64,000 nt of DNA from assembly GCF_009791395.1 (NCBI RefSeq), contig NZ_WSZK01000015.1, positions 744,001-808,000 of the forward strand. The letters are read 5' to 3'. Position numbers and translations under genes: made by a program. Below the pieces are notes generated by a model. It was not told where the DNA came from, ran no database searches, and saw only the letters and a program-made list of their open reading frames with translations. The DNA is from Halomarina oriensis. Its GTDB lineage: Archaea > Halobacteriota > Halobacteria > Halobacteriales > Haloarculaceae. Within the stretch, counting starts at the first letter, position 1; each line of letters begins with the position of its first letter. Positions 26,689 to 31,058 of the stretch are shown in pieces.

Positions 26689-26713
26689 GCACACGCCGTC
26701 GCGGCGAGTGTGC
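26689..26713 (+). terminator. Hairpin after endA
   Basis: GCACACGCCG and CGGCGAGTGTGC form a stem with a TCG loop and a two-base bulge, starting 8 bases after the endA stop. No T run follows. Confidence 0.35.
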
Positions 26714-26731
26714 GGCGACGTGGTATGCGAA

Positions 26732-26740
26732 CCGTTTTGC
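26732..26740 (+). promoter_or_regulatory. Promoter box CCGTTTTGC for trpS
   Basis: Located 33-41 bases before the trpS ATG, slightly further than the usual 23-32, implying a short leader. Confidence 0.4.
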
Positions 26741-26772
26741 CGACGCCCGCCGCCTCCCAGACAACGACCGCC

Positions 26773-28425
26773 ATGAGCGACCACACCGACGAGCGACCGC
26801 GCGACGCTCGTGACCACACCGACGACGCGGACCGCTCCGTCCGCCCCGACGGCGGTACCGCCGCCGGAGCAGACGACGTGACACTCGACCCGTGGGGGTC
26901 CTCGACGGTCGCGGACTACCGCAAACTGTTCGAGCAGTTCGGCATCGAGGAGTTCGACGAGGTGCTCCCGGACGTGCCGACCCCCCACTACCTGATGCGC
27001 CGCGGCGTCATCTTCGGGCACCGCGAGTACCGCCGCGTCCTCGAAGCGATGGCCAACGACGACCCCGCCGCCGTCCTCTCGGGGTTCATGCCCACCGGCG
27101 ACCCCCACATCGGCCACAAACTCGTCTTCGACGAGATCATCTGGCACCAACGACAGGGCCTCGACGCCTACGCGCTCATCGCGGACCTCGAAGCGCACGC
27201 CGCCCGCGGTCTCTCGTGGGCGGAGATCGACGAACACGCCCGCGACTACCTCCTGAGCCTGCTCGCCCTCGGGTTCGACCCCGAGGAGGGCGAACTGTAT
27301 CGCCAGTCGGAGAACCGGCCGTTGCAGGACCTCGCCTTCGAGTTGGGTGTCAAGGCGAACTACTCGGAGCTGCAGGCCATCTACGGCTTCGACGGCGAGA
27401 CCGACGTCTCGCACATGCAGTCGGTCGTCACGCAGATGGCCGACATCTGCTACCCCCAACTCGACGAACCGAAACCGACGGTCATCCCGGTCGGCCCGGA
27501 CCAGGACCCCCACGTCCGCCTGTCGCGTGACCTCGCCTCGCGGATGCGCTTTTTCGGTGTCACCGAGGCGTACGCGAGTTTCGAGGTGGACGAGGCCGAA
27601 CGTGCCGTCGTGGCGAACGCGTACGAGGCGCTCGCCGAGCGTGCGGCCGACCACGACGACGGCACCGTCCGCTGTCTCGACGCCGCCGTCCTCGTCGAGG
27701 AGGGAATCGAGGCCGTCGACTTCGACGACCGCCCACGGATGGACCAGTACGAGGCGGGCGACTCGGGGAGCGACGACCCCGAGGCCCGTGCCGCCGCGAA
27801 ACTCGCCAACGCCGGGATGGAACCACTTCGCCCGCGTGTCCGGTTCCTCGACCGCAACGCCACGCCCGAGGCGTTCGCGGCGCTCGTCGAGGCCGTCGAC
27901 GGCGAGAAGCGCGTGTTCGACGAGCACGTCGACGCGTTCGACCTGACCCACGACGAGGCCGAGTCGCTCGCACAGGACGTGGAGGTCGACAACGGCGGCT
28001 ACGGCTTCGTCCCGCCGTCGTCCATCTACCACCGGTTCATGACCGGGCTGACGGGCGGGAAGATGTCATCCTCGATTCCGGCGTCGCACATCTCCTTGCT
28101 CGACGACCCCGCCGAGGGCTACGACAAGGTGAAGTCCGCGACGACGGGCGGCCGAGAGACCGCGGAACTCCAGCGCGAACTCGGCGGCGAGGCCGACGAC
28201 TGTCCCGTCTACGAACTGTACGCCTACCTGCTCGCACAGGACGACGACGACCTGACCCGCGAGGTGTACGAGGAGTGCGTCGGCGGCGAGCGCCTCTGTG
28301 GCGGCTGTAAGGAGCAAGCGGCCGAGCTGATGCGCGAGTTCCTCGAAGACCACCAGGAGAAACGTGCCGAGGCCGAGGAACTGCTCGACTCGCTCGACGT
28401 CGAGTTGGAGAGTTCGCGGCGCTGA
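26773..28425 (+). CDS. trpS: Tryptophan--tRNA ligase
   Basis: A 550-aa class I synthetase. The HIGH-type motif is PTGDPHIGHK (about 111-120) and the KMSKS-type motif is GGKMSSSIP. It is longer than bacterial TrpRS because of an acidic N-terminal tail (about 1-40) and an internal insertion of about 100 residues between the Rossmann halves, common in haloarchaeal TrpRS. ATG at 26773 (MSDHTDERP). It converges on the methyltransferase gene with only 9 bases between stops. Confidence 0.94.
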   Translation: MSDHTDERPRDARDHTDDADRSVRPDGGTAAGADDVTLDPWGSSTVADYRKLFEQFGIEEFDEVLPDVPTPHYLMRRGVIFGHREYRRVLEAMANDDPAAVLSGFMPTGDPHIGHKLVFDEIIWHQRQGLDAYALIADLEAHAARGLSWAEIDEHARDYLLSLLALGFDPEEGELYRQSENRPLQDLAFELGVKANYSELQAIYGFDGETDVSHMQSVVTQMADICYPQLDEPKPTVIPVGPDQDPHVRLSRDLASRMRFFGVTEAYASFEVDEAERAVVANAYEALAERAADHDDGTVRCLDAAVLVEEGIEAVDFDDRPRMDQYEAGDSGSDDPEARAAAKLANAGMEPLRPRVRFLDRNATPEAFAALVEAVDGEKRVFDEHVDAFDLTHDEAESLAQDVEVDNGGYGFVPPSSIYHRFMTGLTGGKMSSSIPASHISLLDDPAEGYDKVKSATTGGRETAELQRELGGEADDCPVYELYAYLLAQDDDDLTREVYEECVGGERLCGGCKEQAAELMREFLEDHQEKRAEAEELLDSLDVELESSRR

Positions 28426-28434
28426 GTCGGACGC

Positions 28435-29067
28435 CTACTGTTCTTTCTGTACGACTACCGTCGGCGCGAACGTCACGAACGGTTCGTCCGGCGCGTCGAC
28501 CGCCGCCCAGAAGTCCGCCGTCTTGACGCCGAGCACCGACTCCACGTCCGCGCGCGTGCGGAGATTCTCCTCGCCGACGACCAGCGAGAAGAACGCTTGG
28601 CTCTGCTCGTCCATCTCCAGCGCACCACGGCGGGTTCCGGACGACGGGTAGGAGACGACGAGGTGACCACCGGGAGCGACCCGGTCCCAGAGCGATTCGA
28701 GCGCGCGGTCCACGTCCTTGACGAAGAACAGGGTCGCAACGCAGTAGACGAGGTCGTACTCGCCGTCCGTGTCGAGGTCGGGGAGTGTGTCGACGGCGAA
28801 GGTGAGATTCTCCACATTCGCGTCCGCGGCGAGGTCGCGGTTGTCTCTCATCAGGTCCTCGGAGACGTCGACGCCGTGAACCGACGTCTCGGGGTGGCGT
28901 TCTGCGACGGCGAACTCGGTGACGGCGGGGCCACACCCCACCGACAGCATCGTCTCGGGGACTCGGGTTCGCTCGAAGAAGCGTTCGAGCAGGTCCGGCA
29001 TCTCCTCGCCCGCGAGGTACGCGATGCGGTCGTAGTCGCGTTCGCGGTAGAACTCCGTCCACTCCAT
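28435..29067 (-). CDS. Class I SAM-dependent methyltransferase
   Basis: A 210-aa Rossmann methyltransferase. Motif I is MLSVGCGPAVTEFAVAE (about 40-56), the acidic loop is VHGVDVSEDLM, motif post-I is DLVYCVATLFFVKDVDRALE and motif IV APGGHLVVSYPS. The substrate cannot be read from the sequence; small-molecule type is likely. It stands alone, convergent to trpS, with 247 bp of non-coding DNA between its start and the Phe-rich leader ORF. Confidence 0.85.
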   Translation of the reverse strand: MEWTEFYRERDYDRIAYLAGEEMPDLLERFFERTRVPETMLSVGCGPAVTEFAVAERHPETSVHGVDVSEDLMRDNRDLAADANVENLTFAVDTLPDLDTDGEYDLVYCVATLFFVKDVDRALESLWDRVAPGGHLVVSYPSSGTRRGALEMDEQSQAFFSLVVGEENLRTRADVESVLGVKTADFWAAVDAPDEPFVTFAPTVVVQKEQ

Positions 29068-29282: not shown

Positions 29283-29291
29283 CGCTTTTGC
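29283..29291 (+). promoter_or_regulatory. Promoter box CGCTTTTGC for the Phe leader
   Basis: Located 24-32 bases before the leader ATG at 29315, the same geometry as the lipA and DP1 boxes. It predicts a transcript starting at or next to that ATG. Confidence 0.55.
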
Positions 29292-29314: not shown

Positions 29315-29395
29315 ATGGCAAGCGACCCTCGCCGTGCCGGTGTCGTCGCCGACCAGCCACGCGTCGCGGGGTTCGGCTTCTTCTTCGCGGCCTGA
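29315..29395 (+). CDS. Phe-rich leader peptide of pheST (putative)
   Basis: A 26-codon ORF upstream of pheS. Residues 20-24 are Phe-Gly-Phe-Phe-Phe, all TTC codons (29372-29386), directly before Ala-Ala-stop. The ATG has a promoter box at the leaderless distance. Fourteen bases after the stop comes a perfect 7-bp hairpin (29409-29415 with 29421-29427, loop 29416-29420), followed by more dyads before pheS at 29541. This is the design of an amino-acid-sensing leader such as E. coli pheM. In an archaeon the mechanism is inference. Confidence 0.55.
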   Translation: MASDPRRAGVVADQPRVAGFGFFFAA

Positions 29396-29408
29396 GCGAG
29401 CGGCGGAC

Positions 29409-29427
29409 TCTCCCGGCGGTCGGGAGA
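29409..29427 (+). promoter_or_regulatory. Leader hairpin, possible attenuator
   Basis: TCTCCCG-GCGGT-CGGGAGA, a perfect 7-bp stem, starts 14 bases after the leader stop codon, close enough to be blocked by a ribosome finishing the leader. Further dyads are CTCCGGAG (29463-29470), TCGGT/ACCGA (29474-29488) and CGAGTCGACTCG (29494-29505). Confidence 0.45.
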
Positions 29428-29540
29428 CGAAATCGTTCGCAGAGGTCGCATCGCGCAGGTCGCTCCGGAGAGTTCGGTACCCCACCGAGACCACGAGTCG
29501 ACTCGAAAACACCTAACCGACGTACCCGAGTGTACGAACC

Positions 29541-31058
29541 ATGCAACTACCCGCAGCGCAGGTCGCGGTCCTTGAGGCCGCGTCTGCCACCGACGACCGA
29601 ACCGTCGACGCCGTCGCGAGCGAGGTGGGCGAATCGCCCACCGTCGTCACGCGCGCGGCGTTCGAACTCCGAGACGAGGGCCTGCTGGAGGTCACCGAGC
29701 AGGTCGACGAGAGCGTCTCGCTGACCGAGGAAGGCGAGACGTACCGCGAGGACGGACTCCCGGAGGTCCGTCTGTACCGCGCCGCGATGGACGCGGGTGC
29801 CGACGAGGAGGCCGTCGAGATGGGCCAACTCGTCGGTGCGTCCGGTCTCGCAGGCCCCGAAGTCCAGATCGCCCTGTCGAACTTCGCGCGGAAGGGCTAC
29901 GGCCACATCGACGGCGGCGCGGTGTCGGCCGACGCCGACGCGGCCCCCGACACGGACGAGGAAGCGACCGCACTCGACGCCATCGCCGCGGGCGACGCCG
30001 AGACCGTCGACGAGGACACGCTCGACGCGCTGGAACGACGCAACCTCGTCGTCCGCGAGGAGCGCACCGTCCGCTCGCTGCTGTTGACCGACGCGGGTGT
30101 CGACGCGATGATGGAGGGGGTGAACGTGGCGGAGACGGTCGCACAGGTTACGCCCGAACTGCTCACGAGCGGTGAGTGGGCGGACGTGGAGTTCACCGAG
30201 TACAACGTCGAAGCCGACGCCGAGGCGGTCACGCCCGCGCGGAAACACGTGCTCAGACAGACCGCCGACCGCGTGAAGGACGTGCTCGTCGGGATGGGAT
30301 TCCAGGAGATGGAGGGGCCACACGTCGACGCGGAGTTCTGGATCAACGACTGCCTGTTCATGCCACAGGACCACCCCGCACGGACCCACTGGGACCAGTT
30401 CGTCCTCTCGAACCCCTCGAAGATGGACGACGACGACATGCCGAGCGAGTTGGTCGACCGGGTCGCCCGCGCCCACCGCGAGGGCGTCGGCGAGGACGGC
30501 GACGGCTACCACTCGCCGTGGACCGAGGACGTGGCGCGCGGCTTGGACCTGCGTGGGCACACCACGTCGCTGTCGATGCGCTACCTCTCGGGACACGCCG
30601 AGGGTGAACTGGAGCCACCACAACGGTGGTTTTCCGTCGAGAAGGTGTACCGCAACGACACGCTCGACGCGACCCACCTGCTGGAGTTCTTCCAGATAGA
30701 GGGCTGGGTGATGGCCGAGGACCTCTCGGTGCGTGACCTGATGGGCACCTTCACCGAGTTCTACGAGCAGTTCGGCATCACCGGCATCGAGTTCAAGCCC
30801 CACTACAACCCGTACACCGAACCGAGTTTCGAGCTGTTCGGCCGCCACCCCGTCACCGACGAACTCATCGAAATCGGGAACTCCGGTATCTTCCGGCCCG
30901 AGGTGCTCGAACCGCTGGGCGTCGACTGCGAGGTGATGGCGTGGGGGCTGGCGCTCGAACGCCTCGCCATGCTCGTCACCGGCGCGGAGGACATCCGCGA
31001 CCTGCACGGGACGCTCGCGGACCTCGACTTCCTGCGGAACGCGGAGGTGATCTACTGA
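29541..31058 (+). CDS. pheS: Phenylalanine--tRNA ligase alpha subunit
   Basis: A 505-aa archaeal-type alpha subunit. N-terminal winged-helix tRNA-binding repeats (about 1-200) precede the class II catalytic core: motif 2 region WFSVEKVYRNDTLDATHLLEFFQIEGWVM (two pieces around FSVEKVYRND and HLLEFFQIEG), the Phe-binding FKPHYNPYTEPSFE and motif 3 AWGLALERLAML. The stop overlaps the pheT start by one base (TGATG). Upstream lies the Phe-rich leader ORF with hairpins, suggesting control by charged tRNA-Phe. Confidence 0.94.
   Translation: MQLPAAQVAVLEAASATDDRTVDAVASEVGESPTVVTRAAFELRDEGLLEVTEQVDESVSLTEEGETYREDGLPEVRLYRAAMDAGADEEAVEMGQLVGASGLAGPEVQIALSNFARKGYGHIDGGAVSADADAAPDTDEEATALDAIAAGDAETVDEDTLDALERRNLVVREERTVRSLLLTDAGVDAMMEGVNVAETVAQVTPELLTSGEWADVEFTEYNVEADAEAVTPARKHVLRQTADRVKDVLVGMGFQEMEGPHVDAEFWINDCLFMPQDHPARTHWDQFVLSNPSKMDDDDMPSELVDRVARAHREGVGEDGDGYHSPWTEDVARGLDLRGHTTSLSMRYLSGHAEGELEPPQRWFSVEKVYRNDTLDATHLLEFFQIEGWVMAEDLSVRDLMGTFTEFYEQFGITGIEFKPHYNPYTEPSFELFGRHPVTDELIEIGNSGIFRPEVLEPLGVDCEVMAWGLALERLAMLVTGAEDIRDLHGTLADLDFLRNAEVIY

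Follow-up and report, generated by a model that had tools for sequence, protein, structure and literature searches.

That a ribosome on a leader can sense an amino acid and so control genes is textbook knowledge for bacteria. Expression of pheST in Escherichia coli is governed by an attenuator with a Phe-codon leader peptide, PheM, while in Streptomyces an auxiliary, antibiotic-resistant tryptophanyl-tRNA synthetase (TrpRS) is under leader-peptide control.

Upstream open reading frames (uORFs) have been recorded in haloarchaea by dRNA-seq of Haloferax volcanii, which lists a 26-aa uORF in the 150–250 nt 5'UTR of pheS (HVO_2948), a gene for which it records no further start site of its own; another uORF, of 23 aa, stands before the Trp-tRNA ligase gene HVO_A0127 (Babski et al. 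2016, Table 2, PMC4983044). The same table lists fourteen other uORFs in long 5'UTRs, associated with peptide transporters and regulators. For the pheS and Trp-tRNA ligase uORFs, the paper gives no sequences in that table and makes no mention of cognate codons or structure, and it judges structured-leader control not to be typical of haloarchaea (PMC4983044). As far as the literature searched shows, the existence of the pheS uORF is therefore already on record, and its nature, conservation and structure are new. The earlier note on this DNA knew of no established case for archaeal pheST, and the literature searched likewise yielded no amino-acid-sensing leader in archaea.

The sequence analysed here, referred to as the window, is a stretch of 64,000 nucleotides from the haloarchaeon Halomarina oriensis (positions 744,001 to 808,000 of contig NZ_WSZK01000015.1), whose nearest named relative by PheS is Halomarina rubra (92% identical). 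It contains a strong candidate for a Phe-sensing regulatory leader of pheST, most probably a ribosome-based gauge of aminoacyl-tRNA akin to bacterial attenuation. The locus is ordered trpS, a methyltransferase gene on the opposite strand, the leader ORF, pheS and pheT. An upstream leader was also looked for at the window's trpS, and none was found. The genes, leader and promoter elements are as follows:

26710-28425, trpS, as listed
28435-29067, opposite strand, methyltransferase gene
29286..29289, + strand, leader promoter (P1), with a TATA-like TTTT located 29 nt upstream of the leader's ATG
29315..29395, + strand, leader ORF of 26 codons with a leaderless-type start (ATG at 29315, TGA at 29393-29395), encoding MASDPRRAGVVADQPRVAGFGFFFAA*
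29372..29386, + strand, putative Phe-sensing codons TTC GGC TTC TTC TTC, proposed from codon counts in the Phe columns and Phe enrichment
29504..29518, + strand, putative pheS-proximal promoter CGAAAACACCTAACC, about 25–30 nt before the pheS ATG, its function predicted
29541..31058, + strand, pheS, phenylalanine-tRNA ligase alpha subunit, followed by pheT

The earlier note had described a Phe-rich ORF of 26 codons, with four TTC codons in five, 145 nt before pheS. Its coordinates were all right on re-checking: the TTC codons lie at 29372-74, 29378-80, 29381-83 and 29384-86, and 145 nt separate the leader stop from the pheS ATG at 29541. It had also named the downstream gene as that of phenylalanyl-tRNA synthetase, an assignment borne out by a PF01409 match (E 2.7e-80).

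Conservation of the leader and its promoter

The comparison covered 80 named pheS loci and thirty from whole genomes, from which 79 distinct leader sequences were kept. Of the 80 named haloarchaeal loci, 60 have a short ORF encoding M(A/P)SEP...GFGFFFA* in front of pheS. It is present in most sampled families, including more distant families of the order and the low-GC relative L146, and is carried by most of the Haloferacaceae examined. It is absent from the small-genome or deep-branching families sampled, which were few (L142-L145, L160). About 14 of the 80 named loci lack a leader altogether, indicating that it is dispensable over evolution.

According to the earlier note, an ORF or Phe codons without conservation in related genomes would have spoken against a leader. 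Instead, the ORF, its frame, its Phe codons, its promoter, two RNA structures and their spacing are all conserved. In an anchor-based test that is blind to frame, the reading frame is kept in 56 of 57 arm-to-arm matches, the exception being the frameshifted metagenome-assembled genome L006; the raw output was 54 in frame and three out, two of the three being pattern misreads. With the anchor codon excluded, the aligned Phe columns hold 195 TTY codons and no TTR, counts that are not a blind test of the Phe codons since loci were partly selected by Phe content, whereas the frame result is independent of that selection. Phe is enriched 3.8-fold in the leaders, and 278 of the 286 Phe residues fall within the last 11 codons. 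In a control genome, where 1106 candidate short ORFs were found ahead of 2373 called genes, the ranking of Phe runs was headed by the pheS leader.

Conservation is poor in mid-peptide, the commonest residue reaching 18–46% at codons 6–14, which argues for regulation in cis and not for a working peptide. The leader could be an independent small-protein gene that neighbours pheS by chance, a possibility raised for the Haloferax volcanii uORFs in PMC4983044 and compatible with the presence of its own promoter. This is very improbable, as the peptide middle varies while the Phe codons, RNA stems and linkage to pheS are fixed, and a parallel exists at a TrpRS gene (below).

The promoter of the leader was described in the earlier note as its own and of leaderless type, and the TTTT at 29 nt before the ATG has the spacing expected of a leaderless start. 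A TATA-like word lies at -34 to -22 of the leader ATG in 76 of 79 loci, and at -30/-29 in 71 of them, compared with 5% of control ATGs. A leaderless leader mRNA is predicted from this position. The note had also held that transcripts starting only downstream of the leader would refute its proposal; the published Haloferax volcanii dRNA-seq speaks against such a start pattern (PMC4983044).

In many genomes, a CGGAACCGYTAAC element is found 37–56 nt before the pheS ATG. A similar element persists in genomes that have lost the leader, the leader promoter and the structure downstream of the leader stop (P2/P3) together, and it is therefore read as a basal pheS promoter. Since many genomes apparently have such a promoter of their own at pheS, only a share of expression may be under leader control.

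Two RNA structures around the Phe codons

The RNA structures comprise a stem within the ORF, S1, and a longer hairpin, P2/P3, after its stop codon. In the window they are formed by the following elements:

29320..29328, + strand, S1 5' arm AAGCGACCC, codons 2–5 (consensus elsewhere CCGAAYCCC)
29369..29379, + strand, S1 3' arm GGGTTCGGCTT, which includes the first Phe codon
29396..29403, + strand, P2 5' strand, beginning immediately 3' of the stop codon
29404..29407, + strand, conserved internal-loop strand YGGA, its GGA invariant in a 32-sequence alignment
29409..29427, + strand, P3 hairpin TCTCCCG/CGGGAGA, a perfect 7-bp pairing of 29409-29415 with 29421-29427
29429..29432, + strand, internal-loop strand GAAA, invariant in alignment A1
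29433..29440, + strand, P2 3' strand, covarying partner of the P2 5' strand

The perfect 7-bp hairpin that the earlier note had placed 14 nt after the stop is confirmed, and proves to be P3, the innermost portion of a covarying structure that extends further; S1, the second stem, had been overlooked. The check suggested in the note, a search for covarying hairpins before pheS in other haloarchaea, gave covariation above shuffled and slid controls for both S1 and P2/P3.

Outside the window, S1 is formed by codons 3–6 (CCGAAYCCC), which pair with GGGRTTCGG around the first Phe codon. Its covariation is 0.219, compared with 0.102 +/- 0.008 in shuffles, which do not correct for sequence relatedness, and with at most 0.114 in slid controls, which keep relatedness and agree. 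Double changes occur at 9 of 11 pairs, with examples including CCGAATCCC/GGGATTCGG, GCGAACCCCG/CGGGGTTCGC, CTCGAACGCG/CGCGTTCGAG and CCGACTCCC/GGGAGTCGG. The stem also explains features of the coding sequence: unusual codons in the leader (GCA, GAA, TTC) are forced by the S1 arm, and the first Phe codon is TTC in 78 of 79 loci because it lies inside S1. In 52% of loci, the contiguous helix outperforms synonymous recodings (p<0.05). By folding energy alone S1 is not conspicuous (mean z +0.75 relative to synonymous controls), and the window's copy, with two bulged bases, is among the least regular. A likeness of the S1 arms to the tRNA T-arm was considered, and was dropped as probably due to chance.

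Codon choice further along the Phe tract is different: the second and third Phe codons are TTT in 36–45% of cases, compared with 5% in pheS, and runs of T5–T7 are frequent (window site 29378-29386 and its relatives). Termination at T stretches occurs in haloarchaea, and S1 together with the U-rich Phe codons might constitute an archaeal terminator from which the leader ribosome protects. The Phe codons would then be partly a disguised U-tract, and the device would sense translation in general as much as Phe. The T runs of 5–7 that 46 of 79 loci have in their Phe tract, and the over-use of TTT, speak for this reading. However, 18 of the 79 loci, including the window, have no T run above 2 in the tract, the absence of TTR from the Phe columns points to selection for Phe and not only for U, and the Trp device described below has no U-tract directly after its S1. 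A terminator of this kind is therefore unlikely.

P2/P3 consists of an outer stem (P2), an invariant GGA/GAAA internal loop and a variable inner hairpin (P3). In the alignment, 93.2% of cells are paired, compared with 68.5% in shuffles, and covariation reaches 0.533, compared with 0.171 +/- 0.018. The distance from stop codon to P2 is only 0–8 nt across 70 loci. A covariance model (R1) scores 42.4 bits at the window's P2/P3 (E 7e-7 for the window), this copy being in the seed, and 15.5 bits at the next best site. Wherever the position of pheS is known, confident R1 matches all lie just before it; matches elsewhere are weaker, with E above 0.02, and chance-like. A phylum-wide R1 search missed the window's own copy and is too insensitive to show absence.

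Kink-turns of the L7Ae type have a 3-nt bulge beside tandem sheared G-A pairs. A kink-turn in P2/P3 was rejected on inspection, as YGGA stands opposite GAAA without a 3-nt bulge. The loop (window 29404-29432) is reminiscent of a row of three sheared G-A pairs, a motif that makes RNA very stable.

The leader and P2/P3 do not always occur together. In Halomicrobium katesii (L047, upstream of 4001), P2/P3 is retained (47 bits) and the leader ORF has apparently decayed, with ATA for ATG and the stop lost. Locus L151 (G045) is a compact variant: just some 50 nt separate the leader stop from pheS, and both P2/P3 and an evident proximal promoter are missing.

An invariant YGGA/GAAA loop, in a structure confidently found only at pheS, would fit a protein that binds P2/P3, with the leader ORF secondary. 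The protein could be PheRS itself, since winged-helix-like domains stand at the start of its alpha subunit, or a different one; protein autoregulation has a bacterial precedent in thrS. This explanation is improbable, a shade more so than the terminator, since it leaves the Phe codons, the frame and the Trp parallel unexplained, and since L151 has a leader and no room for P2/P3.

Trp-codon leaders before a second TrpRS gene

A second type of TrpRS is encoded by roughly 100 of 293 haloarchaeal genomes. Leader ORFs with a W(R)W motif precede this gene (trpS2) at 40 loci passing all filters, and have perfect arms of 8–13 bp at codons 2–6 and 3' of the Trp codons. Covariation of the stem is 0.269, compared with 0.147 +/- 0.013. 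The genome of the window has a copy of its own, outside the window:

L242, G000:C7 about 548778-548852, minus strand, Trp leader MHGVRWHWHAPSPADSPVVVPAAA with stem TGTCCGCTGGC/GCCAGCGGACA, before the second TrpRS gene

The Trp and Phe devices share a layout and differ in sequence. The plasmid copies of Haloferax larsenii, Haloferax mediterranei and Natronorubrum aibiense are exactly 23 aa long, the length of the uORF listed at this gene in Haloferax volcanii (PMC4983044), and are missing from the incomplete gene tables of those records. The second TrpRS and its Trp leader are often on plasmids (L382-L385, Haloferax, Natrialbaceae), which suggests that the device may travel; a possible reason would be drug resistance of the auxiliary TrpRS.

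An unbiased scan for other leaders, covering 2.4 Mb of a single genome, gave many false positives and one Cys candidate. This Cys-rich short ORF (...PICLCAVCYVPLADR) lies about 216 nt upstream of a probable cysteine synthase gene (L281:15962-16906, minus strand, G054), and could be a Cys leader or due to chance.

Proposed mechanism and comparison with known systems

The leader is proposed to act in cis, with charged tRNA-Phe gauged through the translating ribosome so as to set the level of pheST expression. We infer that the leader is translated, that ribosomes stall in it, and in which direction and at which step expression is affected. Transcription would start at the leader ATG, giving an mRNA that is leaderless for the leader ORF and continues into pheS. 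In Haloferax volcanii a single transcript is supported by dRNA-seq (PMC4983044), and a leader promoter is present in 76 of 79 loci; for the window species, which also has the putative proximal pheS promoter, a single transcript is a prediction.

With ample Phe-tRNA, the ribosome would reach the stop codon and occupy the P2 5' strand, and the S1 3' arm, about 16 nt upstream, would be exposed so that S1 can form. With scarce Phe-tRNA, the ribosome would stall on the FGFFF codons, covering the S1 3' arm and leaving P2/P3 free to fold. The ribosome footprint was assumed to be about 30 nt, from A-site -17 to +12. Across 70 loci, a ribosome whose A site holds a Phe codon would then cover 96–100% of the S1 3' arm and 0–9% of the P2 5' strand, compared with 29% and 96%, respectively, for the stop codon.

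S1 and P2/P3 have no strand in common, and no competing pairing was found when the S1 3' arm was tried against the RNA further downstream (16.9, compared with 16.5 when shuffled). Ribosome position, and not competition between RNA strands, would therefore set the switch. Pairing of this arm with downstream CGAAACC or GGAACC was considered and rejected: it does not exceed the shuffled level, and Halorubrum-type copies disrupt it with no compensating change.

The stalled state, with S1 blocked and P2/P3 formed, would give higher pheST expression. In both devices a ribosome at the cognate codons blocks the stem, and S1 would thus probably lower expression. Reduced premature termination is considered more likely than altered mRNA decay or altered pheS translation, and this is the weakest link of the proposal. 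Transcription attenuation, narrowly defined, has somewhat less than an even chance of being the output. There is no hairpin-plus-U terminator between leader and pheS in the window, and no T run longer than 3 follows P2/P3 in 70 loci.

The lack of a visible terminator, the position of pheS on the same long transcript and the leader stop only about 50 nt before pheS in L151 would all suit an effect of the leader on translation or mRNA stability instead, whether P2/P3 or a stalled ribosome shields the mRNA or the leader ribosome feeds pheS. However, the gap in loci other than L151 is widely variable, at 85–259 nt, and long for coupling. Such an output is a real possibility, if a lesser one than termination.

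The archaeal termination factor FttA has been proposed for polarity in archaea (PMC12548453). There is about an even chance that the pheS and second trpS leaders are the members so far of a haloarchaeal family of leaderless-mRNA attenuators, in which an occlusion switch works without intrinsic terminators, perhaps via FttA/aCPSF1, and at pheS selects one of two hairpins with no strand to compete for. The comparative evidence spans the class Halobacteria and covers two synthetase genes, and the uORFs already on record make the proposal testable in Haloferax volcanii. If true, archaea use the coupling of transcription and translation for regulation, and one may ask by what means, in the absence of hairpin terminators, attenuation of a eukaryote-like RNA polymerase is brought about.

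The earlier note's proposal that a Phe leader subjects pheST to amino-acid attenuation is supported by the conserved ORF, frame, Phe codons, promoter and structures; close identity with pheM is not supported, for want of a terminator U-run and a competing S1 pairing. As in E. coli, a short ORF with a Phe run lies directly before pheS, hairpins follow, and ribosome stalling is the presumed sensor. Unlike in E. coli, the leader ORF has a leaderless mRNA and itself encloses the first stem, of which the first Phe codon is a part, neither a U-run terminator nor an alternative stem pairing is present, the RNA polymerase is archaeal, and pheS often has a second, proximal promoter.

Two hallmarks of classical attenuators are lacking, namely a mutually exclusive antiterminator and terminator sharing a strand (at the pheS leader) and an intrinsic terminator before the structural gene (in the window and 70 loci). 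As these are defining, the haloarchaeal leader is not filed as a member of that class. The T-box also senses tRNA charging upstream of aminoacyl-tRNA synthetase genes, as proposed here; no Rfam family matches the pheS leader region, where the best hit, with E 1.5, was to an unrelated sRNA in the opposite orientation.

In both haloarchaeal trpS2 and the auxiliary TrpRS of Streptomyces, a second TrpRS gene stands behind a Trp-codon leader, a likeness of gene arrangement; unlike in Streptomyces, the enzyme is archaeal and no terminator was found in haloarchaea. With bacterial attenuators of the pheM, trpL and hisL type, the haloarchaeal devices share cognate codons, Phe before pheS and Trp before trpS2, and, at pheS, conserved hairpins, supported by covariation, that ribosome position would sort under the assumed footprint. 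If the occlusion-switch family is real, it would be an archaeal form of amino-acid attenuation.
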